The notes under the pieces: generated by a model | The model's input: the letters and a program-made list of their open reading frames with translations, nothing else | What the model was told of the DNA's origin: nothing | Databases searched by the model: none | Shown: piece by piece, positions 3,211 through 60,240 of the stretch | Position numbering within the stretch: the stretch's first letter is position 1 | Layout: every line of letters starts with the position of its first letter | Translations under genes and position numbers: made by a program | Source of the DNA: Chrysoperla carnea | Taxonomy: Eukaryota; Arthropoda; Insecta; Neuroptera; Chrysopidae | DNA: 64,000 bases | Direction: 5' to 3' | NCBI RefSeq assembly: GCF_905475395.1 | Contig: NC_058337.1 | Span: 137,537,960-137,601,959, forward strand

Positions 3211-5504
3211 CTAGAACCTTACAATAGTTCATTTTCCGATTCACAGATGGCAATTTATTGCCATTCTACATAATCAATTACAAATACGATATTTTTTTCT
3301 TTAATAAATCGTAAAACTAATTTATTACCTTCTTTAATTCGATGAATTTACCAACGCCCCATTTTTTGATGATAAGATAATATCTACCCATAAATATTTT
3401 ATTGATTTTCAAACATTTATACCAATGTACCTGAATTTTATTAATATCCTTAAGGATATTCATTTATATATAATATTTTATATGTATAAGGATAAAGGAT
3501 ATCTAACAATGAAATCCGTTAATTCTTGTGTAAATGTCTGTTAGAATACAATATAATATGTAGAATACAAATTCGATATCTAGACTCCGATAACGATTTG
3601 ATTAAGAAAAACAAATTAAGAAAAGTTTTCCTTATCAAAGTTTTAGTTTTTTATTCTTCTTTCAAACTAAATACTTTTCGAAAATGTTTTAACCATAATT
3701 TCGTTGAATTTTCATACAGAAAATCTGCTTTATTGAAGATTTATGGAAATTCGCCTCAGAAATTGTAATCAAGAGTTATTATTCTATAAGACTATGTAAG
3801 AGTAACAAGGCCACAAGTAGTTTTCGAATTAATTTTCAAGGAACTACAACGTCAGGAAAGTTTTTGCTTCATCAAAAATGACGAAAATCTGATACAATAT
3901 ACTTTGGTATAATAATTCAGTCGGGATCTTCCATTTTCGTCTATACTTGAATAAATTTTGATACTGTGTCGTTTGAGTTTTACGATTGCTAGTATGATTT
4001 TAACTTACATATGTAACCTAATTCATATCGATAGTACAATTTTATGTAAATTAGTTAACTAACAATATTTATCAAAACAATAAGTTAAAAAGCTATATTC
4101 TGTAAATATCCTTTAATACCTGTGTATCGTGATACCTGTATATTGTGCAATTCCAACCTATGCGACAAACAAAATAACTATAATATTACCTTTAATATTC
4201 GTTACAGTTTCTGGAACGAGACAACTTTGTATACATAATACATACGATTTAAATCACTCCGTAAACGGATTCCATCGTGCATATACATATAAGACCGATA
4301 TCGATAAGTATATACTGAAAAAAGAACGCCGTACTTGTGTTTTCTGGTTATTAGGAGAGAGAGAGACTATACTATGAGCCTAGGTTAGTTCGTAGTAATA
4401 AGACTATGTGAATGTTTGGTTTGCATATTAAATTTATTTATTCATAAACCTGGATCAACACATATTATATTATAGAATTTGATTGTGTCCGTTAGTGTGT
4501 CCATGGCGTAGAATCGTTGGACAGGATTTTACAATCCAAATATGAGTTTTGTCATATTAACGTAGTATTATACAAAGTGTTGCAAAAATGCGAGGCAAGC
4601 TATGGAATAATCGATTCTACAAATAATAAATATTAGTTTTATCAGCTATCTTTAGTTCGTTTTTTTCTCAACGTTTAAGTACACTCCTATAAATCTCGCG
4701 AGTCATTTCTTGAAACGTTTCCCTGATTATCTTTTCAAAGTGGTTTACATTTCTAAACGACCACTAACATTCCTATTGATCTTTCTCAATTTGAAACACC
4801 CTGTACATTCAATGTGAAAAGTGAATTGCTGAATGTTATTATTTTCGAAAGCAGAGAATTTTGTAAAGGATAACTTTTTCCGTAAACCTTATAACAAAAA
4901 AGTTTTCCAAATGTAGGCAACTAAAGTAGTTACCCTGTATTTATTTTCAATAGCTTTTGGATAAATTTTCTGAAAATTTGGAAAATAGTATTTCTACAAG
5001 AGTAGGACAATAATCTAGAAAACATTATCTTGAAATAATTTAGTTAGGATTTACGAAATATAGAAGTACTGGGAAGAACCAGGATTTGTTTTCAATAACC
5101 TGGAAGATTCAGGCCAAATTTAAATTCACCATCATATTTCCGCCTTTAAACGGACCTTTACAACGGAATATTTACATTTTTATGTCTAAATCATAGGTTC
5201 CGGATGTAGTAATTTTTTAAAATCCTGTACCTGAACTAATATCTGCTGTGTAGTCCTATTGGTCGCTATATGTTAATACTAGAGACATCTATATGAATCA
5301 TATTTACTACGATGGTAAACGAATCCCAGGTGTTTTGATCATTATCACTAAAACAGTTTCATGTACTCATAAAGAATCATATTTCATCTATGTAGATAGA
5401 GATAAGGCCTTTATTCATTAAACATTCTCTACTAAGTGCATTTATAGGAGGGTGCATAAGTAAGAATACAATATTTATTATATCTTTATAATGCGTATGT
5501 TAGT

Positions 5505-6110
5505 TACAAAAAATAATTATTATAATAAACAAGTGAAAACAAATAATTGACTGAATTAATTGTTGAAATACCATGCATAGTCAGTGTTGATTTCTTTATC
5601 ACATTACACATGCAAACATGTGACACATACATAACTGATAATCAAGTATAGTACATATTATAAAATTTCCGCCTAATTGGCGCCCTCACGGGTAAACAGT
5701 GATGTTTACGAAAAAATGTTTCAAACAAAAGTTGTTCAATTTAATAGATAAGAAACATTTTTTACATTTAAACTTTTGTTCTATCTCTAACGGTTTACAA
5801 GATGGGTCCTACGGATCCAAGATCCAATTGACCTATGATGCTCATTTACGAACTCGACCTTACTTTTTATGTCCTGAGTACGCTGTAAAAATTTCAGCTC
5901 GATATCTTTTTTCGTTTTTGAGTTATCGTGTCCACAGACGGGCGGACGGACGGACAACCGGAAATGGATCAATTAGGTGATTTTATGAACACCTATGACA
6001 AAATTTTTTTCCTAGCATCAATATTTTTAAGCGTTACAAACTTGGGACTAAACTTAATATACTATGTATATTTCATATATACATGGTATAAAAACCATGA
6101 AAGTATCAGA
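5505..6110 (+). repeat. Dispersed repeat R1, copy 1
   Basis: Contains GCCCTCACGGGTAAACAGTG, a segment on either side of TAACGGTTTACAAGATGGGT, a run of (GGAC)n near 5940, and ATCAATATTTTTAAGCGTT. Parts recur at 18360-18660 and 43800-44275. Short open frames inside it are shared by the copies and are not genes. Confidence 0.65.
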
Positions 6111-6679
6111 AAACCAAAGCATGCTGTTCTTAATAAAGGATGAATACTGTGAATAGTTTTATTTGTTTCAAACGTCAAAAGTTAGTTTGAAATAGCGCTC
6201 AACCACGCTGAACGCTTAAATTGTCCACTTATTCTACAGAAATAAAAATTCTGTAGCAAGAATCTAGTTTGTAGTGTTAAGACTTTTCGATAATATTATG
6301 GCCAGTTTAATCGTCTTAGTGAGCGAACAATTCGGCGAAAGCTATAAGAATTGGAGATAGCGTAAGTCATGTGTGTATCATGGTCACTCTGCAACGTTGT
6401 AGCATCTAAAAGCGAACATCTGCCAAGTTATAGTCGAAATAACACTTCGTTATTTGCGAAAAGTCATAGTACTCGAACGAATAAACCGCTGCAGAAGATC
6501 CAAGCTCCACATTCGAGCCAAAGTTAAAGCTTCAAATTTTTTTATTATAACAAATTTAGCTTAACGATTCCTCGAAAAAGGGAGCAAGAAGAATCATAGA
6601 AATTTCACCTTCTTATGAAATCGCTGTCGAAATTATTAAATAATAAATTCTTCAAGATATACATCAGAATTACACACAC

Positions 6680-17700: not shown

Positions 17701-18359
17701 AAACTTTTGTGTTTTTTTCATAAAAGATAAAAATTGATGCAATTCATAATTGTTACTCGGCACTTACACGGTTCCTAAGCACTCTGAGCTTTGTCGTTTT
17801 TGAGATCTAAGATTGATGATCGCATGCTCGCTTATTTCATCAGCCATTTGCTGATTGATTTTTTTTTTACATTTGATTGGCAGGAGCCCCTATGCATTCG
17901 TCCATCCTGGACCAGAGTCATAGTTAAATTTTTTAATTAAAAATTGATTCGTGATGATAAAAAACTTAAATAAAACATCCTTTATATTTAAGAAAGGATG
18001 TTATAAGAAAAAAGGATTTTACACTGAAGAAAGTCAAATAAATCTCAGTATATTTAAATAAATAAATATTTGACTAATTATATGAAGCAGATAAAGAACA
18101 TTTGTCATTATTTGTTTGTGTCTGGTTCTAGATTTTTGTATTCGTAACAAAAAAAACTAAAAATTAATACAAAATGGGGCAAAAAAAAAAAACAATTTTT
18201 AATTCAAAAAATCATCGGATATTCTTATAAGTCTTGTTCAATTTGTTTTCTAGAGATCATTGAACGTCTGAACTTCTGATAAGTCCGTCAAATATAAGAG
18301 ATTGGTTGAGGTATCTAACGTCACAACAACGTAAAGCAACCGAATTTTTGCCTTCAAAA

Positions 18360-18660
18360 TTAAAAAATATATTTGTATACCATGTATATGAAATATACCA
18401 AGGAATACTAAGTTTATTCCCAAGTTTGTAACGCTTAAAAATATTGATGCTATGAACAAAATTTTGGTATAGGTGTTCATAAAATCATTTAATTAGTCCA
18501 TTTCCGGTTGTCTGTCTGTCTGTCTTCTGTCGTCTATCCGTCTGTCATCACGTTTACTCAAAAACGAAAAGAGATATCAAGCTGAAATTTTTATAGCGTG
18601 CTGAAGACGTAAACTACTTCTTGAACTTTTTTCGTGGCGTTGCCTAACTCATAAATTATT
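18360..18660 (-). repeat. Dispersed repeat R1, copy 2
   Basis: Reverse-orientation match to 5880-6090, including the AACGCTTAAAAATATTGATGC segment, a CTGT-rich simple tract at 18510-18550 and AAAACGAAAAGAGATATCAAG. Truncated at the distal end. Confidence 0.65.
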
Positions 18661-22244: not shown

Positions 22245-22250
22245 TTTATT
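22245..22250 (-). terminator. Poly(A) signal AATAAA, gene A
   Basis: AATAAA on the minus strand about 195 bases past the gene A stop. It is the nearest perfect hexamer, just beyond a short hairpin element at 22157-22239 in plus-strand order. Confidence 0.45.
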
Positions 22251-22442: not shown

Positions 22443-24338
22443 CTAATTATTTTTAATATTGATTTTTATCTGGCAACGTTCTTTTGCCTCACTACTCGAG
22501 GCGCCGCCTATGCCATGATTTAGACTAGGCCAAAGGTCAAAGGGATAGGGTCTAGTCTGACTGATCCCTGGCCAATTTAATAATGAAATACCATCGTCTA
22601 AATAATCTGAAAGTAATGGATTTCTTTCAAATGATTCTTCTTCATCTGAATCTCCTTCATCTAAAAATGATGGATAATAAGCAAGTGGATTTACTTCAAA
22701 TGGAACTTCTTCATCTGAATCTTCATAATGTGGATCATATGAAGGTTCAAATGAACTTTCTTCATCTGAACCTTCTTCATCTAAATAAGGTGGAATATAT
22801 TCTGGAATTATTTCATCTGAATCGTCTTCATTGGAATCTTCTTCTGGATAATAGGAAGCAATTGGACTTATTTCAAATGAATCTTCTTCATCTGAATCAT
22901 CTTCATCTGAATCGTCTTCATCTGAATTTTCTTCATCTAAGTAAGGTGGAACATATACTGGAATATTTTCATTTGAGTTTTCTTGAAGTTGTGGGTGTAC
23001 GCTAGACATGCCTGGTGAGCCACCCATCCCTGGGAAGCCTTGCATGTTAGGTGGATACATCATAATTGTCATATCTTTGCCCATTACTTGTTTTTTACCT
23101 TTATATAGATTATTGTTCGTTTTAGAAGGATGTCTAGAATGATGTTTTTGTATCCCATTGATTCTACTTTCATTTAAATTTACAACTTTTGCACGATTTG
23201 GGCTTCCCATTCCCATTAATACTCGTCGTAATTCGTTGAAATTGTTGAATGGTCGAGCACTTCGTGATCTTCGGTTAGAAACATCGGTTGAAGCGTTTGA
23301 TAACCAAATTTTGGAAATAATAATACTGCATACTGCCAACTAATCAAAATATTTTATAAGTATTTTTTTAAGACTAATCAGATAAGACAGTTCATTATAA
23401 ATATTCAATGTACGTGTGATATTGAAAAAATCGATTGGAAAACGAAAAAAGCACATCTAGGCGAACGAAAAAGATCTCTACAAAATTTCTATTTGATGCG
23501 AAATTTCCGAGATATTCCCAGTTATTATCCAATCACACACAAAACACTAAAAGTCAGGGGACAAGTAATCAGATGTTTTTTTTAAGGAATGGAACAATAT
23601 TGAAAATGCATATTTTTTTGAAACTGAACTGAAAATATACGAATATTTTTAATAAATCTGATTAAGAATGTTTCTAGTTACTTAACCACGCTTTGGTATA
23701 TAGTACTAAGAATGAGTTATAATAGATCTGCAGATAAAAGGACGTTCCCAGAGTGTATGAAAATATTTGAGACTTACGTTTCAAATTTTCAGGATGAATT
23801 ATGTCAGAACTTGGAAAAATTAGACGAAAATTAATAATAAAATTTTTCGATATTATAGTTTTTGAAATGTTGATGCCTAAAGATTTAGACAAAATCACTT
23901 ATAGAAGAAATAAAACACAAATGCAATTCATTTCATCATTTTATATGTATTTGATGGAAAAACGAGGGCCGCTTGTTAAAATTTTCTTTATAGGAAAATA
24001 TTTGTCATATTTTTAGTTAATGAATATATGAAGTTTTTCCAATTAATTCAAGAAAATTAGCCTTGGTACATATCTAAGCATATCTTTAAAAACACTTCAA
24101 TATAGCATTTACATGTTAAAAATGCAAACAGCTCAAATCAAAAAATTTATCACCGTAGGGAGTTTTAAAAAATTTACCTGCTTATGTGGCATTAATGAGA
24201 ATGCATATAAACGATTTAAAAATGATGCTAAGAAAACGTAATTTTTGTCGCAACGTCCTTAATTGATGGAACACAAAAAGCAAGTAAAAAAATAAAATTA
24301 AAAATTGAATTTACCAAAAAAAAATTCGAAACTTTCAT
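22443..24338 (-). CDS. Gene A: secreted acidic SDEE-repeat protein (two exons)
   Basis: Not a family I can name. The model has exon 1 at 24315-24338 (ATG AAA GTT TCG ... TTG, 8 codons), a GTAAAT donor, an intron at 23340-24314, a GATTAG acceptor, and exon 2 at 22443-23339; total about 306 residues. The joined N-terminus, MKVSNFFL + LAVCSIIISKIWLSNAST, is a good signal peptide split by a phase-0 intron. The mature chain starts basic (RRSRSARP), carries a GKDMTIMMYPP segment matching gene D's GKQNMAIIFPP, then a Pro/Gly/Met stretch (FPGMGGSPGM). About 150 residues of SDEEDD clusters alternate with PPYLDEE and SFE/PFE motifs. The tail is Trp/Pro-rich and ends CQIKINIKNN, like C and D. The many S-x-E sites would suit secretory-pathway (Fam20-type) kinases, which is inference. 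TATA, initiator and poly(A) signals lie in place. It is the leftmost of four tandem paralogues. The exon 1 assignment rests on its close match to exon 1 of gene D. Confidence 0.84.
22640..22965 (-). repeat. SDEE-rich coding repeat region of gene A
   Basis: Imperfect repeats on the GAT/GAA/TCA codons encode SDEEDD clusters. A looser ~45-residue period joins PPYLDEE, a SDEE run and an SFE or PFE motif. Less regular than the repeats of C and D, so probably older. Confidence 0.75.
23340..24314 (-). other. Intron of gene A
   Basis: 975 bases, GTAAAT donor and GATTAG acceptor, no coding signal. At about 23795-23850 it carries a short stretch (GATGAATTATGTCAGAACTTGG) resembling the TTAA-type foldback repeats at 608-1007 and 3082-3200. 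Confidence 0.7.
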
Positions 24339-24395
24339 ATTTGATTTGAAACACTAAAATATTTTTAAATTCAACGATTTCATATTTTTTTAATA

Positions 24396-24430
24396 ACTGA
24401 TTTTTAATTGAATGTTTGCTTGCTTTATAC
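24396..24430 (-). promoter_or_regulatory. Core promoter of gene A: TATA box and initiator
   Basis: On the minus strand GTATAAAGC (24422-24430) is followed 31 bases later by ATCAGT (initiator A at 24398), the standard arthropod TATA-Inr spacing. The 5' UTR to the ATG at 24338 would be about 59 bases. The same pair at the same spacing precedes gene D. Confidence 0.7.
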
Positions 24431-25334
24431 GATGAGAGCAAGAATTTAAAATATAGAACAAGAGCCAATGATTCATTTTGTTTTGGTAGTAAAGATATTT
24501 TAAATAAATTAAGTAGAAAGATTCTGTTAGATTCATATGTACCTTTACTCCATGTCATTAAAAACACACATTCTAAGCGTTATTACTATAATCTTACATG
24601 TGATGAGTACACTTAGAATGTCTTAACTAGAGTCATTTCAATAAAATTGAATATAAGCTAATAAAAGCTAGGTCACATATATTTTGATCCATTTTCGAAT
24701 TTGAAGGTGTTTACAATAGCTTCATACTGCATTATCATATTGAAACATGCAAATTATAGGCAACATCACGAAATATTGCATATTTTTGAAGAAATTTTTT
24801 GATGAAATCTTTATAATTAGATTATATCGTGGTATTTTCTAAAAAAATCAGAATCTTTATAGATAGAGAATCAAAAGCTAAAAAAACCCACATTTTCTGC
24901 CTAAAAAAATCTTTGGCTCTTCGTCTAAAATTCGCGGTATATTATCTACATACTAATAATCACAGTTGATGTATCATATTTTATACCGATTTTTGTTTTT
25001 CTGTAATTTACACTTCTCCATTTCTGAAACTTAATGCTAGTTTTGGTAATTGCATACACGATCTTTTTGAATGTCTTCTTTCCAAATGTCTGCTCATGGT
25101 AGAGGTACCTAAATTCAAAAATTATGTTTTTATAAATGAACTCTGAAAAGCGTTATATTATTTTGTGTAAAATTTTATTAAGATTATTTTTGTACATAGG
25201 CTATAAGGTAGCGAAATTCTGATCGCGTTTAGCGATTTTATTATATTAATTATTTAATTGGGGGTAAAAATTTTAATTTAATGGCTACCATGGTTTGAAT
25301 CGTCACCTTGGAAGCGGCATGCATACCACATACC

Positions 25335-25445
25335 ATACAGGGTGGATCGTTTTAATCTATTATAGCTTATGGCTGGTTTTGTAGTAGACCAATCAAAAAA
25401 TAACTTAGGCCCAAATTGCTGAATTTCAAAAGTTTAAAGTCTTTA
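25335..25445 (+). mobile_element. Left part of a mariner-like MITE
   Basis: TACAGGGTGGATCGTTTTAATC followed by GACCAATCAAAAAATAACTTA, matching the left ends at 51200 and 60775. No right end seen. Confidence 0.4.
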
Positions 25446-25949
25446 TTTCTGTCTCTAATTCCCATGGCAGCCTATCGTCTTTTCTTTTTTTTTTTGTTTC
25501 TTTTTATCAATTTCAGTGAAGTCTTCGTTTAGTGCAGAAAATATAATCAAAATGAACGCTACCTAGCATAAATATTAACCACTTTTAATTTTATGAGTAA
25601 TCTAGATTTTTATTTAGAGTGTCATTGATTATTCAATGGGTTTTAGTAAGTAGAGATTTATTTATCATTAAATTACGAAATTCTATACATTAAAAAAAAA
25701 AAAATTTTTATTTCTTTAAAACTCGAATTAAATTTTGTAATGAAAAATTAATTATTTTGAAAACTAATACTATCATCAAGCAGTCTAATCTTACAGTCTT
25801 ACAGATTACAGAAATTCAATTCACGAATAGATTTCATGAGGTAGTTTAGTCACGCAAGCCAAATCTTAAGAAATCTTCTAAACTTTGAATATAAACCATT
25901 GATTAATTTTTTTCCAGTGAAGGAGATTAACCGTTTTGTCAAAAAAGTA

Positions 25950-26096
25950 ATGTTCTTGACGTTCTTGCCTGTATCCTTCTTCTTCCATCTTATACTCTTT
26001 GGGAATGGTAACTTTAGCAATTGTTATGGCGGACGAGTCAATGCAGTTGGTGATTCGCGCAATACTTCTGGTGGAAAGCCCTATTCAATACTGTAA
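25950..26096 (+). CDS. Candidate small secreted peptide or terminal exon
   Basis: A 48-residue frame begins MFLTFLPVSFFFHLILFGNG, a credible signal peptide, followed by a 28-residue polar chain with one Cys (FSNCYGGRVNAVGDSRNT, then GGKPYSIL and a stop). A strong pyrimidine-AG (TTTTTTTCCAG at 25908-25918) lies just upstream and the frame is open back to it, so this could be the last exon of a longer gene. An AATAAA-like motif is near 26209. It stands in the spacer between genes A and B on the opposite strand. No known neuropeptide motif with a dibasic or amidation site is visible, and a chance frame in AT-rich DNA is quite possible. Confidence 0.3.
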   Translation: MFLTFLPVSFFFHLILFGNGNFSNCYGGRVNAVGDSRNTSGGKPYSIL

Positions 26097-26489
26097 TATT
26101 ATTTAGGTTAACATAGATACTATATTATTTGTCTCTATATCAAACCAGCTTTGTAGTAATTTTTGGACAAATTGACATATTTTAGTTAATAAGGATATCA
26201 ATTGGGTATAAAATAAAAATTGGAAAATTTTATAATTAAAATTATTTTATTTCAAGAGTCAAATAGTAGTTAGTTTATAATACAACTTTTGTAAAAAAAC
26301 ATTTCAAGAAGAAAAAAAACCTAAAGATAAAGAAAATGCTGGTTTGTAAATCAATGTGTGATAATACTCAGGAACGGTTCCATTCAGTTGAAACTTAATA
26401 AATATTAAGTAGCTGTCGTTGAATACAAGTGCCATCTGTTATCAAATAAAATAATCCATTTATTGTATATCATCTCTGTTCCTATCCCT

Positions 26490-26660
26490 ATATATTATAA
26501 ATGTGAAAGTAAGGGTGTTTAATTATTTGTTTGTTACGATTTGGCGGAAAAACTACTGAATGTATTTGAAAGAAACTTGACAATAATATAGCCCATATAT
26601 AAGAATAACACATGGGCTATAATTTTTAAAGATACATTTAAAAAATGATATTTATTGTTT
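26490..26660 (+). mobile_element. 5' fragment of a Helitron-like element
   Basis: GTGAAAGTAAGGGTGTTTAATTATTTGTTTGTTACGATT followed by GGCGGAAAAACTACTGAATG matches the start at 19320. No 3' end found. Confidence 0.4.
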
Positions 26661-26840
26661 TGACATTTCATAAAACATTGCGAAGGAGATGCAGTTTATG
26701 GACATCTGTTCAAACAAGGTTATATTATTTTATTTACTTTTTATTGATCTTTGCCATTTATTTAAGGACGAAAGAAATTATTGTGTAATTTAAAAAAAAT
26801 TAAAAGGTCATTTTTAAAGACTTTATTACCTACGTCTTTT

Positions 26841-27311
26841 TTAAGGTAGTACCAGCATGAAATCACTTTTCGACAGATTTGGCCGAATTTTTTTTCTCGG
26901 GTTTATAATAGCTTTATTTATGAATTCCTAAAATTTCATAATTTTTGACCGTTTAGATCGCGAGATATTTAAAGACAAAGTTCGAGATTTTGAGGGTCAT
27001 GTCCCATTTAAAGCATGTAAAATGTCCGGTCTCTCCAACTATTTTTTATGATATTATTATATATTGAAGAAAAAGTAGAAAAAAATGTTTATACAATAAA
27101 ATTCTAAAAAAAAAATTTAGAAATTAATTTTCACTTTCGAGATATTAATTTTGACGTAAATTGATCGAAATTGGGACGTTGGCATAATTATTTCCCATTT
27201 TAAACGGTCAAAATTTCTGAAACTTTGGGAATTAATAGTAAGCATTATTAAATTCTTAAATTTAATTTTTCGTTAAATTCTGTCGAAAAAAAAATTGTAC
27301 CATTGCTTTAA
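26841..27311. mobile_element. TTAA-flanked foldback MITE
   Basis: Starts TTAAGGTAGTACC and ends GGTACCATTGCTTTAA-like, with imperfect inverted arms of about 200 bases (shared TTTTTCGACAGA and TTTTTGACCGTTTA). TTAA at both ends points to piggyBac-type mobilisation. It lies in the spacer between genes A and B. Confidence 0.6.
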
Positions 27312-27471
27312 CATAGAAACTGCAAATACCATGCTGGAAATACCTTAAAGAAACTAATGGGTATTTTTTTTTTTTTTTTTTTTTGATAGCAGTTAGAACT
27401 GATGCACATCGACATATGTGATATTTATAAAAAAAATCGACTAAAATAATGTTTTCTAAGAATATTCCAAC

Positions 27472-28528
27472 TTAATTGTAAACAGTTTCGAATGGATTAT
27501 TATAATAAAAATCGTCGTAATGGTTGTCTCCAAAAGAATTTTGATCGTATTCGTCATTTGGTAAAAACGGATCATATGCGTAATCTGATAAAAAAGGATC
27601 AACATTTTCATATGAAAATTCACGCTCATTGACAACAAATGGATTTTCATCAAATTGATCAAATTCATAATTCATTTGTTCTCGCTCATCCAAGTCCTGT
27701 AAATATGCATCCAATTCGCGGCGTCTTTCAAGACTTGCTTCCTGAGCTCGTATTTTGTCTTCTTCTTCTTTGCGTCTTATTTGTTCTTCTAGTTTTGTTT
27801 GAAGTTCTTGTCGTTTTGCTAGAGATTCCGTGGTGGTTGAAATTTTGAATGTCGTCGACGTATTTTTCTTCTTTATGTTGGTGTTTTTAAACGCGACTCT
27901 ATTATGCGGTATGTTAGTGTCAGCTGTATCCAAGTCCCGTCTGAGTGGTTTGACATGTTCAGGATACGAACTATATATTGAGTTCCAATTGATTAACGGT
28001 AAAAGCATAATGGTTTTTTGTCTTTCATTTTTTCGTAAAGTTGTAATTTTTTCATCTTTCAACATTTTTAGTTTCCTTAGAAAACTATGAAAATTATTGT
28101 ATAAGTTCAATGGAAATTCTCTTGCATTTCTCGAAACAGTTGTAACAACATTGCCGCTTGCAAAGCTAGTATAATGTTGGCAGATTGTAATGCAGCAAAC
28201 TGAAAACTGTCAAAAAATATTTTTAAATTTCAACAATTTGCATAAAATTCATCAGGCAGGAACTAACTATGTTAGTTAAGCGAATTCCATCTTAAGAAAA
28301 TTAAAAACTAAAAAGAACTACAATATCTTGTAAGATTGTGTAGTAAAGTGTGATTGGATAAGAGTTATACAATTTTTCAGTTTAAATAAAAACAAAACGG
28401 TATAAGATATCAGGTTTTTTTTTTTAAATTTTTAGACATTGTACATAAACACACGATTGTTAATCGGAAAGTGTGAATACATTGAAAACGATGAAACGTA
28501 AAGATATATTGAATATTTCGATTTCCAT
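27472..28528 (-). CDS. Gene B: secreted charged coiled-coil paralogue (two exons, exon 1 tentative)
   Basis: Exon 2 at 27472-28206 is open for 244 residues from a TTGACAG acceptor and begins FSVCCITICQHYTS, matching the exon-2 openings of A, C and D. The best first exon is 28481-28528, giving MEIEIFNISLRFIVFN before a GTATTC donor and a 274-base intron. EIFNISL aligns with KIFNLIL of gene D, and a TATA box lies at the right distance, but the donor is weak, so the exon end is uncertain. An ATG at 28540 in the same frame would add four residues. The mature part has a basic N-terminal half with a QKTIMLLPL segment resembling TIMMYPP/MAIIFPP of A and D. A Glu/Arg/Lys-rich predicted coiled-coil follows (KRQELQTKLEEQIRRKEEED), then an acidic Asp/Asn/Tyr/Phe tail (DPFLSDYAYDPFLPNDEYDQ) ending ETVYN. 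It lacks the C-terminal Cys tail of its neighbours and is the most divergent member. A run of about 21 T (A in the transcript sense) lies 88 bases past the stop. Confidence 0.62.
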
Positions 28529-28540
28529 TTTTGGACCCAT

Positions 28541-28574
28541 TATGACAACTATCCTATACTGGGAACTTTATAAC
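28541..28574 (-). promoter_or_regulatory. Probable core promoter of gene B
   Basis: GTTATAAAG (28566-28574, minus) lies 29 bases before a TCATA initiator-like site (A at 28543). The candidate ATG at 28528 is then only about 15 bases from the start site, and another in-frame ATG at 28540 is 3 bases away, which is short for a leader. The position fits the exon 1 assignment but does not prove it. Confidence 0.5.
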
Positions 28575-28677
28575 TTTAGTACCTACATATTCTGTACGCA
28601 GAGGGTATTAAAATTTAAAATAAACCAAATTATTTTGTTAAAACTATTTTATTTAAATCATGCACTTGTATATTATT

Positions 28678-28683
28678 TTTATT
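28678..28683 (-). terminator. Poly(A) signal AATAAA, gene C
   Basis: AATAAA on the minus strand about 78 bases past the gene C stop, in an A/T-rich tract that separates it from the promoter of gene B. Confidence 0.5.
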
Positions 28684-28759
28684 AAATAGAAAACATTTCG
28701 AAGGGAATATATAGAAAACAAAGAATAAACAACATTATTAACTGAATCTTAAAAAAGTT

Positions 28760-30310
28760 TTAGGTTAATTTATTTACATTTATTATTATATTACAGCCGT
28801 CATTTTCTTTGTACTTAGATGCTGCGTCCGCTAGTAACCCTTCTTTACTGTTTGAGTCACTCGATTCATCATTGTCGATTTCAAAGTCATCCTCTTCAAT
28901 ATCTCGAAAGTCATAATCTCGTTCTCCAGAATTTTCATAATCATCGCTTCCTTTTTCAAAATCCTCTTCGATTTCCCATTCATAGTCGTCTTCGTTTCCC
29001 CATTCATTATCCTTTTCGTTTCCCCATTCATCATCCCCTTCGTTTACCCATTCATCATCCTCTTCGTTTCCCCAGTCATTATGCTCTTTGATGTCGTCTT
29101 CATCATCCTCTTCTTGTCCCCATTCATTACCCTCTTCGTTTCCCCATTCATCATCATCTTCGTTTCCCCATTTATCATCCTCTTCGTTTCCCCATTCATT
29201 ATCCTCTTCGCTGCCTTCTTCATCATCCTCTTCGTTTCCCCAGTCAATATACTCTTTGATGTCGTCTTCATCATCCTCTTCTTGTCCCCATTCATTACCC
29301 TCTTCGTTTCCCCATTCATCATCATCTTCGTTTCCCCAATCATAATCCTCTTCGTTTCCCCATTCATCACCCACTTCGTTTCCCCATTCATTGTCTTCTT
29401 CATCATCCTCTTCTTTTCCCCATTCATTATTCTCTTCGTTTCTCCATTCATCATCATCTTCGTTTCCCCAATCATAATCCTTTCTGTTTCCCCATTCATC
29501 ACCCACTTCGATTCCCCATTTATTATCCTCTTCGCTGCCTTCTTCATCATCCTCTTCGTTTCCCCAATCAATATACTCTTTGATGTCGCCTTCATCAACC
29601 TCTTCTTGTCCCCATTCATTACCCTCTTCGTTTCCCCATTCATCATCATCTTCGTTTCCCCAATCATAATCCCCTTCGTTTCCCCATTCATTGTCTTCTT
29701 CATCATCCTCTTCTTTTCCCCATTCATTATACTCTTTGTTTCCCCATTCATCATCGTCTTCGTTTCTCCATTCATCATCCTGTTCGTTTCCCCATTCATC
29801 ATCCACTTCGTTTCCCCACTCATAATCGTCTTCATCAGAAACAAAAAGATTATATCGTCCCCAATAAGTTTTCTTCTCTTTCTGAAGAGGGGCATTGCCT
29901 TGTAGTTTGAAAGGGTACCCTGCGGTAGATTGCGATGAGTATGATAATGAATTCAAATGATAGGGATAGCCTTGTTGATTCCTTGAATACAGATAGCCAG
30001 GGCGGTAGTAAAAGTTGTAAGGTTTCATTGTATAGCCTGGGTTGCCATCGCTGGGATATTTAATTCTAAAACTTTGCTTGCCGGTTAGTGTTTCATCATA
30101 TCTTTGATCTGTAGAATTTTTAGACTGTTGTTGGCGTGTGGCAAATATTGTTCTTCCAAAATGCTTTTGTTTTCTTAGTGTGTTTATATTTCCTCGATGG
30201 TTACTATGCCTATTGGACGATAGTTGTCCAATACCATATACCAAATTTGTTGATGGTATGGCATGACAATCAAAATGTTTGACGAGCGTGAACATGTACA
30301 ATACTGTAAA
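28760..30310 (-). CDS. Gene C: secreted acidic EWGNEEDD-repeat protein (main exon)
   Basis: A single open exon of 516 residues follows a TTTTTTTGTTAG acceptor and opens FTVLYMFTLVKHFDCHA, the second half of a signal peptide. Residues about 25-100 match gene D closely (NHRGNINTLRKQKHFGR against NHRSSVNALRNQNHFGR; RYDETLTGKQ against RYDKTITGKQ). A Tyr/Gly/Pro/Asn segment follows (YRPGYLYSRNQQGYPYH). Then come about 290 residues of an octamer near EWGNEEDD, arranged in longer blocks marked by WGQEEDDEDDIKEY. The tail is acidic and ends CNIIINVNKLT, matching CNIVININ in D. The main open frame is intact. The problem is the first exon: the aligned position at 31198-31242 reads MHEIFNRKFSLKQK and stops with no GT donor in frame. 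Without exon 1 the only nearby ATG (residue 6) gives a poor signal peptide. Either the gene uses another leader, such as exon 1 of gene D, or it is recently disabled. Poly(A) signal at 28678-28683. Confidence 0.74.
   Translation of the reverse strand, partial: FTVLYMFTLVKHFDCHAIPSTNLVYGIGQLSSNRHSNHRGNINTLRKQKHFGRTIFATRQQQSKNSTDQRYDETLTGKQSFRIKYPSDGNPGYTMKPYNFYYRPGYLYSRNQQGYPYHLNSLSYSSQSTAGYPFKLQGNAPLQKEKKTYWGRYNLFVSDEDDYEWGNEVDDEWGNEQDDEWRNEDDDEWGNKEYNEWGKEEDDEEDNEWGNEGDYDWGNEDDDEWGNEEGNEWGQEEVDEGDIKEYIDWGNEEDDEEGSEEDNKWGIEVGDEWGNRKDYDWGNEDDDEWRNEENNEWGKEEDDEEDNEWGNEVGDEWGNEEDYDWGNEDDDEWGNEEGNEWGQEEDDEDDIKEYIDWGNEEDDEEGSEEDNEWGNEEDDKWGNEDDDEWGNEEGNEWGQEEDDEDDIKEHNDWGNEEDDEWVNEGDDEWGNEKDNEWGNEDDYEWEIEEDFEKGSDDYENSGERDYDFRDIEEDDFEIDNDESSDSNSKEGLLADAASKYKENDGCNIIINVNKLT
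28983..29830 (-). repeat. 24-bp coding minisatellite of gene C
   Basis: About 35 units of a 24-base repeat encode EWGNEEDD variants. Units group into longer blocks that each begin with WGQEEDDEDDIKEY, seen at about 29084, 29270 and 29600, so expansion happened at two scales. No stop falls in several alternative frames, so long false open frames appear on both strands here. Confidence 0.9.
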
Positions 30311-31197
30311 CTAACAAAAAAGTTGGTTTTTATGATACATATTGCGTTGTTAAACAATTTTAAGTTTGCAAAAATTCAAAGTTAAAAGAAATTTTATTTT
30401 GATAAATTTGTCAAAATCAGTTGGCAAAAGTCGCATTCAAGCAAACAAAATTTTAATTCTTTATTTACAAAAATAAATCAAAAACTATAGCTTGAACTAC
30501 AACAGATCTCAGTGCAATTTTCTCTATCAAGAACCCATCTGCTGCTGTCCAGGTTATATGTTACTTCTGCAATGGAATCTAAAAATGGGTTGGGTTGGAA
30601 TTGAGATATGGATTTTTGTACATAAAGTTATAAGACTCCATTAGACCGTGTGATATAAATTGTGCTTTCTAAAATGATTACCACATACTTGAAACCTTAG
30701 TGGCTTCCTTTTGCCGAGTTTACCATACTTCTCTCAACGAATTTTTTCGAAAGTGCTGCGTTTTCAAATGAGCATGATAATAGCATATTTAAGTTATCGG
30801 TCTGAAAAAACGCGACATGGAATTTGTCATGGACTATGAACACTTGATAGCATTAGTTATTCGACAGTGCTTGAAGTCAATATTTAAAACTTGATTTTGA
30901 AATTACAGGTTTAAAAAATTTTTATCGCCCATTTATATGGAGAGAGGAGTGGGAGGTATATGCAAATAAAAGTGACAGTAGTATTATTGATATTATTTTA
31001 TTTAAATTATTTCATTCATATAACATTTTCTTCGAAAATAAAAGAAAAATTAAGGAACTGAATGGAATAAAGACGTAAATTAGCGCAGTGTATTTTGCAG
31101 AAAACGCTCATAAAGATTAAAATAGGATATTTTGAATCTTATCTTTTTCCAGGTTATTTTATGCTTAAAATTTCTTATAATTTACGGTTTGAGCTAT

Positions 31198-31242
31198 CTA
31201 TTTTTGTTTTAAAGAGAATTTTCTATTAAAAATCTCATGCAT
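31198..31242 (-). pseudogene. Exon 1 remnant of gene C, no splice donor
   Basis: Just below the promoter-like motif at 31264-31289, ATG CAT GAG ATT TTT AAT encodes MHEIFN, aligning with MKIFN of gene D and EIFN of gene B. The sequence then runs RKFSLKQK to a TAG with no GT in frame before it. A second ATG at 31238 gives MRFLIENSL and stops at TAA. The first GTAA donor downstream (CCGTAAAT) lies beyond the stop. This looks like a family first exon that has lost its donor. Confidence 0.5.
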
Positions 31243-31263
31243 AGAATTTTCAACTTTTCCAAT

Positions 31264-31289
31264 ACTGATGATCCGACTCTCTTTAATAC
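31264..31289 (-). promoter_or_regulatory. Degenerate core promoter of gene C
   Basis: TATTAAAG (31281-31288, minus) precedes ATCAGT (A at 31266), but the spacing is 22 bases where genes A and D have 31, and the TATA box is imperfect. This looks like a copy of the family promoter that has lost about 9 bases. It sits just past the poly(A) signal of gene D. Confidence 0.45.
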
Positions 31290-31370
31290 ACCGAATCTAC
31301 GGAAGAAAGGTATATGTTTTTAGAGACCTTAAACGAATCGAAGCAAAAAGAGCGTAAGCACACTTACGCC

Positions 31371-31376
31371 TTTATT
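31371..31376 (-). terminator. Poly(A) signal AATAAA, gene D
   Basis: AATAAA on the minus strand 41 bases past the gene D stop, followed by a GT-rich stretch (GGCGTAAGTGTG) suited to a downstream element. Confidence 0.6.
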
Positions 31377-31416
31377 CCACACAGTTCCCCAATTGACGCT
31401 TAATACATTTTTCGGT

Positions 31417-33536
31417 TCAATTAATATTTATTACTATATTACAATCCTCACTATTTTCGGCCTCGCCGCTGTACATGCCATTTTCGCCACTTTCCTCTGA
31501 AGAGAACTCAGATGAAACTTCGCCGCTGTCTATCATACTATGTTGGTTCGTGTCTTTATTCCATGTTAAACCTTCATCTTCCTCGGATGAAAATCCAGAT
31601 GAATCTTCGCCGCTGTCTATCATACTGTGTTGGTTCGGGTCTTTATTCCATGTTAAACCGTCATCTTCCTCAGATGAAAATCCAAATGAATCTTCGCTGC
31701 TGTCTATTATACCGTGTTGATGCAGGTCCTTGTTCCATAATAAACCGTCATTTTCCTCGGATGATAAAAGTTCAGGTGAATCCTTTTGCTCGTGCATTAT
31801 ATTATGCTGGTGTGGTGGCCTGTTGATTTGAGGAAATGGAAATGGACCGAAGGCTGGAATTTGTCCAGGATAACCAGGGTGGTTGGGTGAAAATCCAGGG
31901 AATTGAGGATACATTGATGGATTTCCTTGCTGAGTAATTATTTGTGGAGGACCACCACCTGGACCGGGGGGAAATATAATTGCCATATTTTGTTTGCCAG
32001 TTATCGTTTTATCATATCTTTTATTAGTAGGATAATCGTGTTTTTGTTTGCGAGTCGGTCTTGATCTTCCAAAATGGTTTTGATTTCTTAATGCGTTTAC
32101 AGAACTTCGATGATTGTTTTGCCTATTTAACGACAATTTTTTAAAATTTTTGTTCCCATTTGCCAATTTAGATGTAGTCCTCGCATTACATCGGCAATGT
32201 TCGACCACCATGAATATACACACTGTAAACTAAGAAAATATTTTTTTCAAATTTTGTTCTACTTTTGATTAGGTACACACGTATTTAATTTTTTTGATTT
32301 TTCACCTTTCATTGAGAACGCTCATAAAACAAAAATCGAAAACATGGTTCACCTCATTTTAGAAGGAACGAGAATACAGTATTTATTTTTACCCGACTTT
32401 CTGGAAATTTTTCAAACATTAAACTGATTACGACTCAAAAACGATGAACTTTAGGAACAAATCACAGCATCCTTTTTGACGTAAAATTACCTACAAAAAC
32501 CTCGTGTAGCTTTATTTGGTTCAAAAAATTTACATTTAACTGTTTCTGGGGAGCGAAAGGGATATACAAAAATTGGACCAACATCCGTTTTTGGATAACA
32601 TTCGGAATATTAATCTATTAGCTTTTCCGAACCAATAAGTAAAATTTTCGATATTTGGCGTAATTTTCAAAATATCGAAAATTAAAAATTTTCTTTAATT
32701 ATTGAGCTTTCGATAGTTCGAAAACCTAGGCAGATATCGCAATATTTATTTCTTATTTTTAGTCTACATTCATGAAGTTATAATTAAATTCATCATCAGG
32801 GCTAAAAAATCCTTTTTTTCTTTTCGATGGCATTACTAATATGCTTTCTTTCTTAAAAAAAGGTTTTTACTTTATTTTTTTTAAACGTTTCAAGTGAAAG
32901 TTAGCAAAAACTTTCAAAATATGTCGTTTTTTGAGATTTCGCTTTAAGAGCAGAAGTATTTTATACCGATTTTCAATGAATTTTTTCTTAAAAATTTGCA
33001 TGGATACATAAGTTGAAATTTTAAACACATATTCTTTGAGTAAAAGTCTACCTTTAAAAAATTTGGTCCCTTTAAATCAAACATGTCATACTCATGTATT
33101 CTTGAAATCAGCAATTTTCGCAGCTTTTTTTTCGGCATGACGCACTACTAAACACAGTTAACGAAACCGTTCTCGATACCAGAGGTACATCATCTCTAAT
33201 TAATTGCGGCCGTAAAATTTACTGGGTGCAGTTTGTTAAAGTTGCAAATATTTGCATAAATTTTAGAAATCTATGATTAGGAACAAAATTTTTTTTCCCG
33301 CAACCGCTAATAATACAGTAAGTTCTTAAATCTGATTTTGATTCTTAAATTACCTCTTGCAATTACCCATCTAAATATTATTAATATGCCATTACGTCTA
33401 TAAGCCAATCGAAAACACCCAAAAAATACCCAAAATTTTCCATATGTATAAAGGGAAAACGATTAATAATGAGAAGAAATTAAGAAAAACACAAAAAAAA
33501 AATTAAGCTTACCAAGATCAAATTGAAAATCTTCAT
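31417..33536 (-). CDS. Gene D: secreted acidic protein with 29-residue repeats (two exons)
   Basis: Family not recognised. Exon 1 at 33513-33536 (ATG AAG ATT TTC AAT TTG ATC TTG) ends at a good GTAAGC donor. The intron is 32230-33512, and exon 2 at 31417-32229 follows a TTTTCTTAG acceptor; total 278 residues. The joined start, MKIFNLIL + FTVCIFMVVEHCRCNA, is a classic signal peptide, probably cut near CNA. The next 70 residues are basic (LNRQNNHRSSVNALRNQNHFGR, then RYDKTITGKQNMAIIFPP). A Pro/Gly/Gln-rich segment follows (PGPGGGPPQIITQQGNP, PQFPGFSPNHPGYPG). Three copies of a 29-residue acidic unit, SSEEDDGLTWNKDPNQH-SMIDSGEDSSGF, come next, and the chain ends DCNIVININ. TATA box and TCAGT-type initiator precede exon 1 at the same spacing as in gene A, and AATAAA is at 31371-31376. 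It is the rightmost and best-formed member of the array and the reference for modelling the others. Confidence 0.87.
31500..31762 (-). repeat. 87-bp coding tandem repeat of gene D
   Basis: Three 87-base units encode the 29-residue SSEEDDGLTWNKD-type repeat. The first (N-terminal) copy is the most divergent (GLLWNKDLHQHGIID) and the last two are nearly identical, suggesting recent duplication. Confidence 0.88.
32230..33512 (-). other. Intron of gene D
   Basis: 1283 bases, GTAAGC donor and TTTTCTTAG acceptor. A minus-strand copy of the TTAA-foldback repeat body lies at about 32640-32810 (matches 650-800 and 39690-39830). No open frame here looks real. Confidence 0.72.
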
Positions 33537-33570
33537 ATTTGTTTGAACAATTTAACTTAAAATTTCTTAA

Positions 33571-33606
33571 ACTGAATTTGAGATGATAATTTTTATGCTT
33601 TATATA
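33571..33606 (-). promoter_or_regulatory. Core promoter of gene D: TATA box and initiator
   Basis: TATATAAAGC (33597-33606, minus) is followed by TTCAGT with its A at 33573. The distance from the first T of TATAAAG is 31 bases, as in gene A. The ATG is 37 bases downstream of the inferred start site. Confidence 0.72.
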
Positions 33607-43799: not shown

Positions 43800-44275
43800 A
43801 TACATGTATATTTGAAATATATCAAAGTATATAAATATTATCGAAGATAATAAATGAGAACTCTAGGATATTTCGAAATAAATTTCGATTTTTGCCCCAA
43901 TTTGCAAAGAGTAACATTCATAATAAGAATAATCACGACTAGCTAATAGTCGAAATACGTATTTATAAAATACAAAAAACAGATCTAGGAAATTGGGGCA
44001 AAAATCGAAATTTATATCAAAGTATATTAAGTTTAGTACCAAGTTTGTAACGCTTAAAAATATTGATGCTACGAACAAAATATGGTACGGGTGTTCATAT
44101 AATCAGTAATCACCTAATTAGAGAAAGAAAAAAACTTTAAATACAAAAAATGTTCCTTATAAAAAGCTTTTTAGTAAAGCAGACGTTAAAAAACGATTGC
44201 GTCCACACTGTTTATACATGGTATTTCAACAATTATCTCAGTCAACTGTTTGTTTTTACTTATTTTTATTTTATT
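43800..44275 (-). repeat. Dispersed repeat R1, copy 3, split by an insertion
   Basis: Matches copy 1 in reverse (AACGCTTAAAAATATTGATGC near 44050; TTGAAATACCATG complement near 44220). The match is interrupted at about 43837 and resumes at about 44012, with ATATCAAAGTATAT on both sides of the insert. Confidence 0.6.
43838..44010. mobile_element. Short inverted-repeat element inserted in R1 copy 3
   Basis: The inner ends are inverted repeats, CGATTTTTGCCCCAATTT and AAATTGGGGCAAAAATCG. A related sequence with ATAATAAGAGTAATTACGATTAGC and GATCTAGGAAATCGGGGCAAAA lies at 35645-35830. The host segment ATATCAAAGTATAT is duplicated at the insertion. Confidence 0.5.
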
Positions 44276-55105: not shown

Positions 55106-56520
55106 AAAAACTAATTGTTAGGTAATTGTTTAAGCTATGCGGCAGTGTCTGTATTCTTTTAGTGTTTTTATAATTTTCCATTTTGGAAATAAAACACGTT
55201 TGAAGAGGAACATGCGATAAAAAATTGTAAAAACTTAAACATCATACAAATATTAAATCAAAATATTAAATTTAGTATAATATTTTATTTGACATTAAAT
55301 AAGAATGTAAATATTCAAATACTACACTCGTACTGAATTCATTCATTTTAATAGAATAAATACTTCAAATTTAATTCTGCTTATTATTTTATACATTTAT
55401 AACTATACTGCATGAATAATACAGGTACTAGAAACATATGATTTCTAGAGTATATATTAAAATAATACCTACTATACAAGGTTCTACAAGAGTTCACATT
55501 CAGCAACTGTCAAGAAAAACCAATCTTATCTTGAAAACGAACAGATTTTCGTAATTTTTACGTAAAAAAAATAGGGCTTATTTATCGATTCGGCTAGAAT
55601 TTGTTGAGATACAGCCTAAAACTCTATCAAAATAGTTATTAATTGAGCGATTTTGACGATATTTGATTTCAAAAAAGAGTGAAACGTTTGTAGAAATATT
55701 TAAGATTTAATTTTGTTAACACGAAATTTTATAAAACAGTTTATAGCTGTCAATTGCATCTATGTCAGTAGAATCTCGATAATCCAATCCAATTCTTCCA
55801 CTCGCGCCCTTTTCATTCCGCTTCCTACGTCTGTGATATCATAATCAATATACATATATTTGTACGTGAATTATTTTATGCCATCCCAGAAATCCAACCA
55901 AATCATGTTACCCGAACAACACTGGAGTCCCGAATATAGAGACTTTATACTGTATTTTAAGATACCCTATATCTTACACATATCTAGATATGAAAGTATA
56001 CATTTCATACAACATATTATATTTGCAGGTAACTATTTACATTTTAAAAGGTAGAAGGTAGAAGGTTAGTAAATGTAGATACATACCTATAGTAATAATA
56101 ATAATAATCGCAATCATGATAATAATATACGAAATGTTAAAAGCTCTTTCGCAATATAATAACATATATCATAAATTTATTTATAGATGAAAAGTACATA
56201 CCAAAAAACATATACATGTACAGGGGTGTCCCAAAATTATCGAAAAAAGGTTATTTTGTGCGAAAACACAGTTTTTTAATTCAAAGTTGTAAATTTTTTA
56301 AAAGTATAGGGTTATGTATAGAATAGCATGTCGGTAAAATTTATAGCATATCAGGTATCATTCTTAGATCTTGAAGGTGTAGCGGGCTGGTGACTATTGT
56401 TTCTTATTGATCGTATGAAAGATCAATGAGATTCATGGTTGCCATCTTTTTCATATTACTTTGGTTACGCAAACAACCAATAACCCTCTACTGGAGTAAA
56501 TCCAAGCAAAAAAAGACTGT
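55105..56520. other. Intergenic with a mariner-type left end
   Basis: TACAGGGGTGTCCCAAAATTATCG at 56220 is a mariner-type terminal sequence without a matching right end before the palindrome at 56524. Nothing else identified. Confidence 0.45.
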
Positions 56521-56523
56521 TAT

Positions 56524-58921: not shown

Positions 58922-58924
58922 ACA

Positions 58925-60240
58925 AGGCGTAATTTCACTCTACTACTCAGAAAAGTGGATTTATAGACGTCAAAGGGTTGTTGTTAGTTCTTCTCTACAT
59001 TTCAGCTTTAATATGTAGGAACAAGCTCTTACAAATGCATAAAGAAGTTTTTTTGTCGAAATTTTCCTTGACCATTTTGCATATGTAGCTGAATAGCTGT
59101 GATACAGATCTAAACCTTTAGGTAGTAGTCGCAAGCATATGTTGTCAGATATCTCAGACTTCATGGTAAAAAATCCAATAATATATTAAACCCCATATGA
59201 TTTGAGCGGTCTATATCATAGTCGCATGCCTCTGAATTTTTTTTAAATTAATCTTTTCACATTTGATGAAGCTAAATCATTATTTCAACCTTAATTGACA
59301 TAAAAGCGAGAGCTATAGCTTCTTAAACTTTACAATTTTTAAAACCATGCGCAATAGTGAAATCACGATCTTTTATCATCGAGTCCTCCATTTAAAAAAA
59401 TCCTAAATTGCCAGCTGTCACTCTGCCTGTACTATTTTATTGTCAACACTTTACTACGCAAATGGGCAAACATTCATAGCTTGCGCTAATTTTGGGACAA
59501 CCTTTACATATACATGTACGAAATATTTTGAATATTATATATTACTGTCTATTTATATCGATCATATTATGGCATATATCAAAGACTATAGGATAGACAA
59601 GAAGCAGAAGTATAATTATAAGTGACATCTGGAGTCTGAGGCGATCAACTATTAAGTTTGTAGGCCTTTGCGGGTATGGCTATTAAGTTTAACTACTTTG
59701 CGGGGGTGACTATTAACTATTAAGTTTGAAAGCCTGACTCGGTAGAGGCGCTGAAACTCGTATACTACGATTTTACATTAGCTCATATGGGCTGCTTCTC
59801 CTCTATCCTATGCTCTTTGGCATATATGTGCAACAATATGTCTGTAAATATTCAGAGTGCAGGGCCTGGAAATATATAGAAAAGTTCATTTTTCAGAAAA
59901 TCGTCTAGATTTTTTCTTCTTGCCGATTACACCATATTTTGATGTATAAATCGTTTTTACACCCTACATTCAACGTATATATAACGTGATTCTTTCCATT
60001 ATTATTTACCAACCTGATTTCAGCAATTTCTCAAAAGAAAAATTTTTTTATATATTCTTATTTTTATCGAAAAACAAGTAATATTTGTCCACAAAATTTG
60101 TTTCTTATATTGTTCTTACAGTTTTTATATTTGCTTTAAAAAACCGTAAATTTAAGCATATAAAATTGAGTTCTAAGAAAAAAGAAATTCTTTTTGGCAG
60201 CCAAGAAAGAATAAGAATCTGATTACAAACATATTTACAA
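58925..60240. other. Intergenic, weak repeats
   Basis: At 59645-59735 CTATTAAGTTT recurs three times with GCGGGKRTG-like spacers. No gene seen. Confidence 0.4.

Follow-up and report, generated by a model that had tools for sequence, protein, structure and literature searches.

A short leader exon followed by a long exon is a gene plan already described in insects, and the plan itself is not new. Here we compare the closest described systems with a cluster of four predicted genes, A to D, in a 64,000-nucleotide (nt) stretch of the Chrysoperla carnea genome (559 megabases, Mb). The stretch, referred to below as the window, lies at 137.54–137.60 Mb of the 140-Mb contig NC_058337.1; positions are counted from its first letter. 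The lepidopteran fibroin heavy chain gene AaFhc, of Antheraea assama, has a TATA box and two exons; exon 1 comprises 69 nt (27 nt of untranslated region (UTR) and 42 coding nt, or 14 codons) and ends inside the region for an 18-residue signal peptide, while the long exon 2 is repetitive, with an AAUAAA near the stop (PMC4522600). Its C-terminal region contains Cys, and a disulphide-linked homodimer has been suggested (PMC4522600). The clustered cadhesin (caz) genes of the caddisfly Limnephilus lunatus mostly have two exons, the short first one encoding part of the signal peptide and the long second one often repetitive (PMC11092239), and all pseudofibroin (Pfib) genes of the caddisfly Plectrocnemia conspersa are likewise two-exon genes whose short first exon encodes part of the signal peptide (PMC9432349). 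In Drosophila, the glue genes Sgs1/3/7/8 and Eig71Ee have a short first coding exon and an intron inside the signal peptide; these genes are clustered and subject to turnover, and their products are disordered and in some cases repetitive (PMC6352337, PMC10835880). The Hessian-fly SSSGP genes are tandem genes for secreted proteins in which promoter and signal peptide are kept while the mature part diverges, and in some of them the first intron falls inside the part that encodes the signal peptide, or at its edge (PMC2955719).

Four homologous reading frames on one strand

Four long frames without internal stops lie on the minus strand of the window, transcribed in the order D, C, B, A:

31417..32229, minus strand: D exon 2, terminal exon, 270 codons plus stop; AATAAA at 31376, 41 nt past the stop
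28760..30310, minus strand: C exon 2, 516 codons plus stop; acidic WGNE repeats; acceptor intact; AATAAA at 28683 and 28653
27472..28206, minus strand: B exon 2, 244 codons plus stop; charged middle; without the C-terminal Cys motif
22443..23339, minus strand: A exon 2, 298 codons plus stop; AATAAA at 22250, 193 nt past the stop

Apart from two frames that cross C's own repeat array, these are the only frames of at least 150 amino acids (aa) in the window. When DNA outside the cluster was used to train a Markov-1 model, the longest frames in 100 simulated windows of 64 kilobases (kb) had a mean of 123 aa and never exceeded 186. All four main exons open with [FL]-[TSA]-V-[CL] directly after the AG of the acceptor (LAVC, FSVC, FTVL and FTVC in A, B, C and D), as an earlier reading of this DNA, made from the letters alone (hereafter the sequence-only reading), had claimed. 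Judged by their sequence, the four exons are real homologous reading frames on one strand.

Local alignments of the N-terminal parts, with the exon 1 part included for A and D, support this relationship. None of 500 shuffles reached the score of D–C (z 25), A–D (7.7), A–B (6.7) or D–B (4.2), while A–C and C–B stayed at chance level (90 and 126 of 500 shuffles); we treat A to D as a four-member family because the links via D and A join all four. The block NHR..LR.Q.HFGR, singled out earlier as a query for related genomes, is present in C and D but absent from A and B. Its HFGR, which we take to resemble an amidation site, brought up a signalling-peptide precursor; we rejected that candidate, as the block occurs in two of the four proteins.

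Searches for further copies and outside relatives returned little. A profile of the four members found no fifth copy among window frames of at least 30 aa, and none among frames of at least 25 aa in the window plus 30 kb on each side, or in 130 kb on each side (omitting 40 nt to the right of the window end, and with frames that span the ends of fetched loci cut). Searches of the whole genome used A and D as queries. A found only itself at E <= 0.001, missing D, and D at E <= 10 found itself, C (4.7e-10) and two weak matches, missing A and B; since the two queries miss each other and B, the absence of relatives elsewhere in the genome applies to close relatives. Both weak matches were set aside as chance: C3:82780629-82780841 (E 0.05) has two stops and a profile score of 7.4 bits, while C1:86597660 (E 1.4) looks zinc-finger-like by eye. 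The four proteins, run against Pfam to E 1, matched no family at E <= 0.001 (best 0.026, under that family's own cut-off), and a sequence search of the PDB with D and B gave nothing convincing (best 0.73 and 0.053, respectively). A viral origin was rejected, as none of D's eight pattern matches to viral contigs was confirmed. Judged by titles and abstract openings, none of the papers found describes the family or a shared leader of the kind considered below, which is no proof that they are unpublished. The suggestion that the family is undescribed thus holds for Pfam (all four proteins), the PDB (D and B), viral contigs (D) and, at limited sensitivity, the genome itself (A and D); insect proteins and other insect genomes lay outside the search.

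Split signal peptides and promoters of A and D

A and D each have an upstream exon of eight codons and a promoter-like arrangement ahead of it:

33513..33536, minus strand: D exon 1 coding part, MKIFNLIL, donor GTAAGC, phase 0
33599..33604, minus strand: D TATA box, TATAAA of TATAAAG
33570..33575, minus strand: D initiator-like TCAGTT, beginning 29 nt after the TATAAA start
24315..24338, minus strand: A exon 1 coding part, MKVSNFFL, donor GTAAAT, phase 0
24424..24429, minus strand: A TATA box, in the pattern TATAAAG-N(20-28)-TCAGTT
24395..24400, minus strand: A initiator-like TCAGTT, beginning 29 nt after the TATAAA start

The two exons and their phase-0 junctions (33513/32229 and 24315/23339) were found as previously proposed, the splicing being predicted from sequence. 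The predicted GT-AG introns measure 1283 nt in D and 975 nt in A, with donor scores of 8.0 and 3.7, and the two introns give only weak alignments with each other among the alignments listed. Exon 2 alone encodes part of a hydrophobic stretch, and adding the leader of D or A raises the best 10-residue hydropathy in all four proteins (in D from 2.29 to 3.05). A conserved Ala at exon-2 residue 16, 16, 17 and 16 (A, B, C, D), with Ser or Cys at -3, is a likely cleavage site; with Ala at -1, the 8 + 16 residues of A and D would form a signal peptide of 24 residues.

The promoter elements went unnoticed in the sequence-only reading, as did the Cys motif that ends A, C and D, the candidate leader of B and the decayed leader of C described below. 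The window has exactly two copies of the pattern TATAAAG-N(20-28)-TCAGTT, one upstream of D and one upstream of A, against an expected 0.04, and none of 100 shuffles reached two; in 124 kb these remain the only copies. As the pattern was chosen after A and D had been seen, these figures are descriptive. TCAGTT matches the arthropod initiator. D and A also show a modest DNA likeness across the promoter and exon 1 (local score 38; background maximum 28).

The presumed 5′UTR of A contains a leader-like upstream frame of nine codons (24383-24354, minus strand; MKSLNLKIF followed by a stop), in frame with the main ATG, which is possibly the remnant of a duplicated leader or an upstream open reading frame.

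A candidate leader for B

Scans restricted to GT[AG]A donors, or to donor scores of at least 2 with hydropathy above 0.5, returned no leader for B or C. Without donor or hydropathy filters, the scan yielded candidates for both. That of B was absent from the filtered scans because its donor is weak:

28481..28528, minus strand: B candidate leader exon, MEIEIFNISLRFIVFN, phase 0, weak donor aat/GTATTC (score -0.8)
28566..28572, minus strand: B candidate TATA box, TATAAAG; TCAT follows 27 nt further on, at 28545

The EIFNISL of this peptide scores 21 against the KIFNLIL of D, and no phase-0 ATG..GT peptide in 600 background stretches of equal length reached that score, although this test was post hoc, the likeness having been noticed before testing. 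TATAAAG has 30 copies in the window and is present in 110 of 1000 background stretches of 553 nt. Two results count against the leader: the combination of TATAAAG, ATG and phase-0 GT occurs in 36 of 1000 such stretches, and the DNA likeness of the region to D (19) and A (18) lies within background (mean 15, maximum 28). We consider it probable that B uses the leader at 28528-28481.

Directly upstream of B's acceptor, 28244-28214 (minus strand) is 90% like the presumed 5′UTR of A (24384-24356) over 31 alignment columns; this AT-rich likeness may be chance.

A broken leader ahead of an open frame in C

C has no intact counterpart of these leaders. In the homologous place stands a damaged copy:

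30352..30488, minus strand: decayed copy of promoter, 5′UTR and exon 1 of C; TATA altered, no TCAGT, no aligned ATG, donor GC

This remnant of 137 nt aligns with the promoter-to-exon-1 region of D at a local score of 37, which none of 2411 background windows reached (maximum 28). Within it TATATAAAG is changed to TAAATAAAG and the donor GT to GC. TCAGT does not occur between 30500 and 30311, and no ATG was found at the place aligned to that of D, gap placement there varying between two alignments. The acceptor of C is kept.

Right before C exon 2, at 30340-30311 (minus strand), an ATG opens a nine-codon frame, MYHKNQLFC, which is in frame with exon 2, nothing but the acceptor's TAG lying between the two.

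Three explanations for C were weighed. We put at slightly under even the chance that C has a leader of its own (diverged, located elsewhere, or part of a three-exon gene) and that B uses 28528-28481, which would leave four ordinary separate genes. The intact acceptor of C and the resemblance of B's candidate leader to that of D agree with this, and the leader scans covered leaders made of a single coding exon. Within 1106 nt upstream of C, 30786-30724 (minus strand, MLLSCSFENAALSKKFVERSM) is the sole other phase-0 ATG..GT candidate with a fair donor, whose score of 4.8 exceeds the 3.7 of A. Yet the peptide is hydrophilic, the hydropathy of C is 2.08 with or without it, and no peptide in this upstream stretch scores above 8 in likeness to the A and D leaders; moreover, the copy that is homologous to those leaders is there, but broken.

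We regard as unlikely, but worth stating, a second possibility: that the promoter and leader of D are spliced alternatively to the terminal exon of D or to that of C, 3.2 kb downstream, and perhaps to that of B (5.3 kb). One signal-peptide start would then serve different mature secreted proteins, while A would retain a full set of its own and B probably too. Sharing would account for the state of C, whose promoter, start and donor, having become dispensable, would have decayed while acceptor and frame were kept. Since D has its own AATAAA 41 nt past its stop, sharing with C would need polyadenylation at D to be skipped, and B's candidate leader lowers our rating of this explanation.

A shade more doubtful is the third: C, and perhaps B, would be a gene copy in decay, its frame still open by happenstance. 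The loss of TATA, initiator, ATG and donor in C is what decay would produce, the donor of B is weak, and the sole polyadenylation signal listed for B within 450 nt is an ATTAAA at +206. The nonsynonymous (dN) and synonymous (dS) divergences of the C repeats are also nearly equal, no better than in control frames. Neutral survival of the frame of C is nevertheless improbable: after loss of the start, 516 open codons together with the donor lesion and an indel have a joint probability of at most 3.7e-5 over six divergences, or 5.4e-3 when stops and the donor lesion alone are counted, in a model with assumed rates (indels at 10% of substitutions, 80% of them frame-breaking) and alignment-dependent lesions. 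Comparison of the heads of C and D (dN 0.36, dS 0.62, one-sided Fisher p 0.053) points the same way, but is suggestive only. C is probably not neutral; it may use an unseen leader, share that of D or be dying.

The split signal peptide predicted earlier is therefore clear for A and D and probable for B, while the homologous leader of C is broken. Likewise, A and D give good support to the picture of a clustered family of diverging secreted proteins with split leaders, a picture that is probable for B and possible for C.

Composition of the predicted mature proteins

The proteins had been called acidic, which fits their isoelectric points of 4.05-5.23 and their acidic tails but not their N-terminal parts: residues 1-80 of each predicted mature chain are net basic, with 13-17 Lys/Arg against 2-8 Asp/Glu. 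A linker rich in Pro, Gly and aromatic residues follows this basic head in A, C and D and leads on to the acidic tail. The same three proteins end in a common motif:

31420..31443, minus strand: D C-terminal motif CNIVININ, containing the sole Cys of the predicted mature protein
28763..28795, minus strand: C C-terminal motif CNIIINVNKLT, containing the sole Cys of the predicted mature protein
22446..22475, minus strand: A C-terminal motif CQIKINIKNN, containing the sole Cys of the predicted mature protein

The shared pattern is C-x-I-x-I-[NK]; counted from the Cys, the tails are 10 (A), 11 (C) and 8 (D) residues long. A random tail of 12 residues would contain C.I.I[NK] with a probability of 2-3e-5, and among 1078 frames of at least 30 aa, C.I.I falls within the last 14 residues in A, C, D and one more.

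Secretory kinases of the Fam20C type phosphorylate sites of the S-x-E kind. A has 13 such sites against 3.9 +/- 1.7 in shuffles, and D has 15 against 2.2 +/- 1.3. Judging by their titles, the papers found on these kinases do not concern insect substrates. The repeats are rich in Asp, Glu, Asn and Trp or of SDE type, and all periods reported for the array of C are multiples of 3. An AlphaFold model of A exon 2 has a mean predicted local distance difference test (pLDDT) score of 41.9, with helices at 2-17 (the signal-peptide part) and 34-42.

A proposed secreted material

We hypothesize, with about even confidence, that the cluster is a lineage-specific family of secreted, disordered matrix or adhesive proteins, of a tissue that we do not name. 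We read the family as largely structural and of silk or glue type, and its likeliest use would be in a deposited material, for instance silk, glue or a salivary sheath. In A and D, and probably in B, a TATA/initiator promoter stands ahead of a tiny exon with the first signal-peptide codons, which a predicted phase-0 intron joins to one long terminal exon. Secretion and cleavage at the conserved Ala, after 24 residues in A and D, would release a two-block polyampholyte. We envisage that basic heads pair with the acidic tails of other chains so that the secretion condenses, that the tails of A and D may be partly phosphorylated at S-x-E, and that the single Cys in the short I-x-I motif of A, C and D could form disulphide dimers as the secretion sets. 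The mature parts would evolve by in-frame repeat expansion, with leader, head and C-terminus kept.

Several observations weigh against this hypothesis. B departs from the common design, with a mixed-charge middle, an acidic aromatic end, no C-terminal Cys motif and no Cys in its tail. C (5 S-x-E sites, 4.6 in shuffles) and B (2 sites, 1.3 in shuffles) show no excess of these sites. The AlphaFold input was a four-row alignment, in which case a low pLDDT is weak evidence of disorder. Selection on the repeats is not clearly purifying: the units of C have dN 0.22 and dS 0.26, with frame 0 no better than control frames, and those of A have dN 0.33, above dS 0.13. Finally, no sequence relationship to a known silk or glue protein has come to light.

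Another extracellular matrix role, as an eggshell, cuticle or mineral- or calcium-binding acidic protein, seems to us unlikely; the acidic, S-x-E-rich tails of A and D would suit it, but such sites are few in C and B, and the Pfam search named no family. Weaker still, and improbable in our view, are salivary or venom-type effectors acting on host or prey, a comparison made in the sequence-only reading for which we found no specific support: clustering with kept promoter and leader and diversified mature parts recalls the Hessian-fly SSSGPs, and common signal peptides with divergent remainders recall the aphid KQY/KHI families, but SSSGPs are described as 50 to 200 aa long with near-identical signal peptides and mature parts little alike, whereas here the mature parts are long and have a basic head and, in three proteins, a C-terminal motif in common.

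If the proposed family of matrix or adhesive proteins is real, it adds one more case of a tiny leader exon joined to a long, often repetitive exon, as known in several insect groups, and its two-block charge design with a single C-terminal Cys offers a simple, testable material hypothesis. If, in addition, C is served by the leader of D, the locus would have been caught at a step between gene duplication and alternative splicing, in which a duplicate, its promoter and start gone, persists as an alternative last exon.

Surroundings of the cluster

None of the other ten long frames of the window reaches the cut-off of a Pfam family (best E 0.027), and neither an Rfam match at gathering score nor a tRNA was found in the window. 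At 56508-58935, inverted repeats of 317, 188 and 269 nt are 97%, 96% and 93% complementary, with similar peptides, by eye, at 4682-5137 of flanking locus L004; this is probably an inverted pair of a repeated element. A recurring frame with SIFLSVTNLGLNLIYF-like text (5922-6140, plus strand; 18253-18492 and 43866-44102, minus strand; L005 2478-2741, plus strand) is probably an interspersed repeat of the genome, and the one copy scanned, 43866-44102, has no Pfam match. Adjoining minus-strand frames of 1235 and 174 codons at L013 5620-9788 look by eye like a little-decayed Copia-type retrotransposon.

A serine protease gene lies about 9-12 kb left of the window, with a CLIP domain, a mark of arthropods (PF12032, E 6e-10), and a trypsin-domain stretch (PF00089, E 3e-22) at L005 302-799 and L006 8474-8833, both on the minus strand. 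About 80 kb right of the cluster, two related minus-strand frames of 292 and 323 aa (L009 7805-8680 and L010 421-1389) have many hydrophobic stretches and appear receptor-like by eye; this pair has no Pfam match.

Comparison with known silk, glue and effector genes

The fibroin heavy chain of moths and caddisflies offers a comparable gene plan. Its whole-codon short leader exon and long repetitive exon 2 are matched by A and D and probably by B, though not by C alone. Its repeats are Ala/Gly/Ser-rich and crystalline, or of the (SX)n type. Such repeats are not found here, nor, with Pfam at E <= 0.001, are its conserved terminal domains. AaFhc is set apart, by its description, through its much greater length, its crystalline repeats and the lack of a basic-head/acidic-tail plan.

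The remaining systems differ in other respects. The caz proteins are described as Ser/Thr-rich (PMC11092239) and the pseudofibroins as having Ser-Ala/Ser-Gly motifs (PMC9432349), unlike A to D; caz genes are described as having no conserved 3′ end that codes for Cys, in contrast to A, C and D, so that the agreement of A and D extends to the exon plan only. In the Sgs genes the intron is in phase 1 at residue 10 and spans 50-71 bp in Sgs1, against phase 0 after residue 8 and 1283 and 975 nt in D and A, the repeats are rich in Pro, Thr and Ser, unlike those of the cluster, and the C-terminus reads IRXC[L/V]C (PMC6352337, PMC10835880), where the cluster has CQIKINIKNN, CNIIINVNKLT and CNIVININ, with one C-terminal Cys each, and a Cys-free tail in B. 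Similarly, lepidopteran Ser1/Muc1/P150 end in CXCX or CXCXCX (PMC9745057), whereas predicted mature A, C and D have one Cys and B none. SSSGPs are small, with promoter, UTRs, intron and signal peptide kept, UTRs and introns being highly conserved, and mature parts little alike (PMC2955719); here the A and D introns align weakly, among the alignments listed, D–A likeness is modest, and head and tail motifs are common to several members. The cluster differs from each of these systems in at least one defining feature that we tested, but it may work like them.

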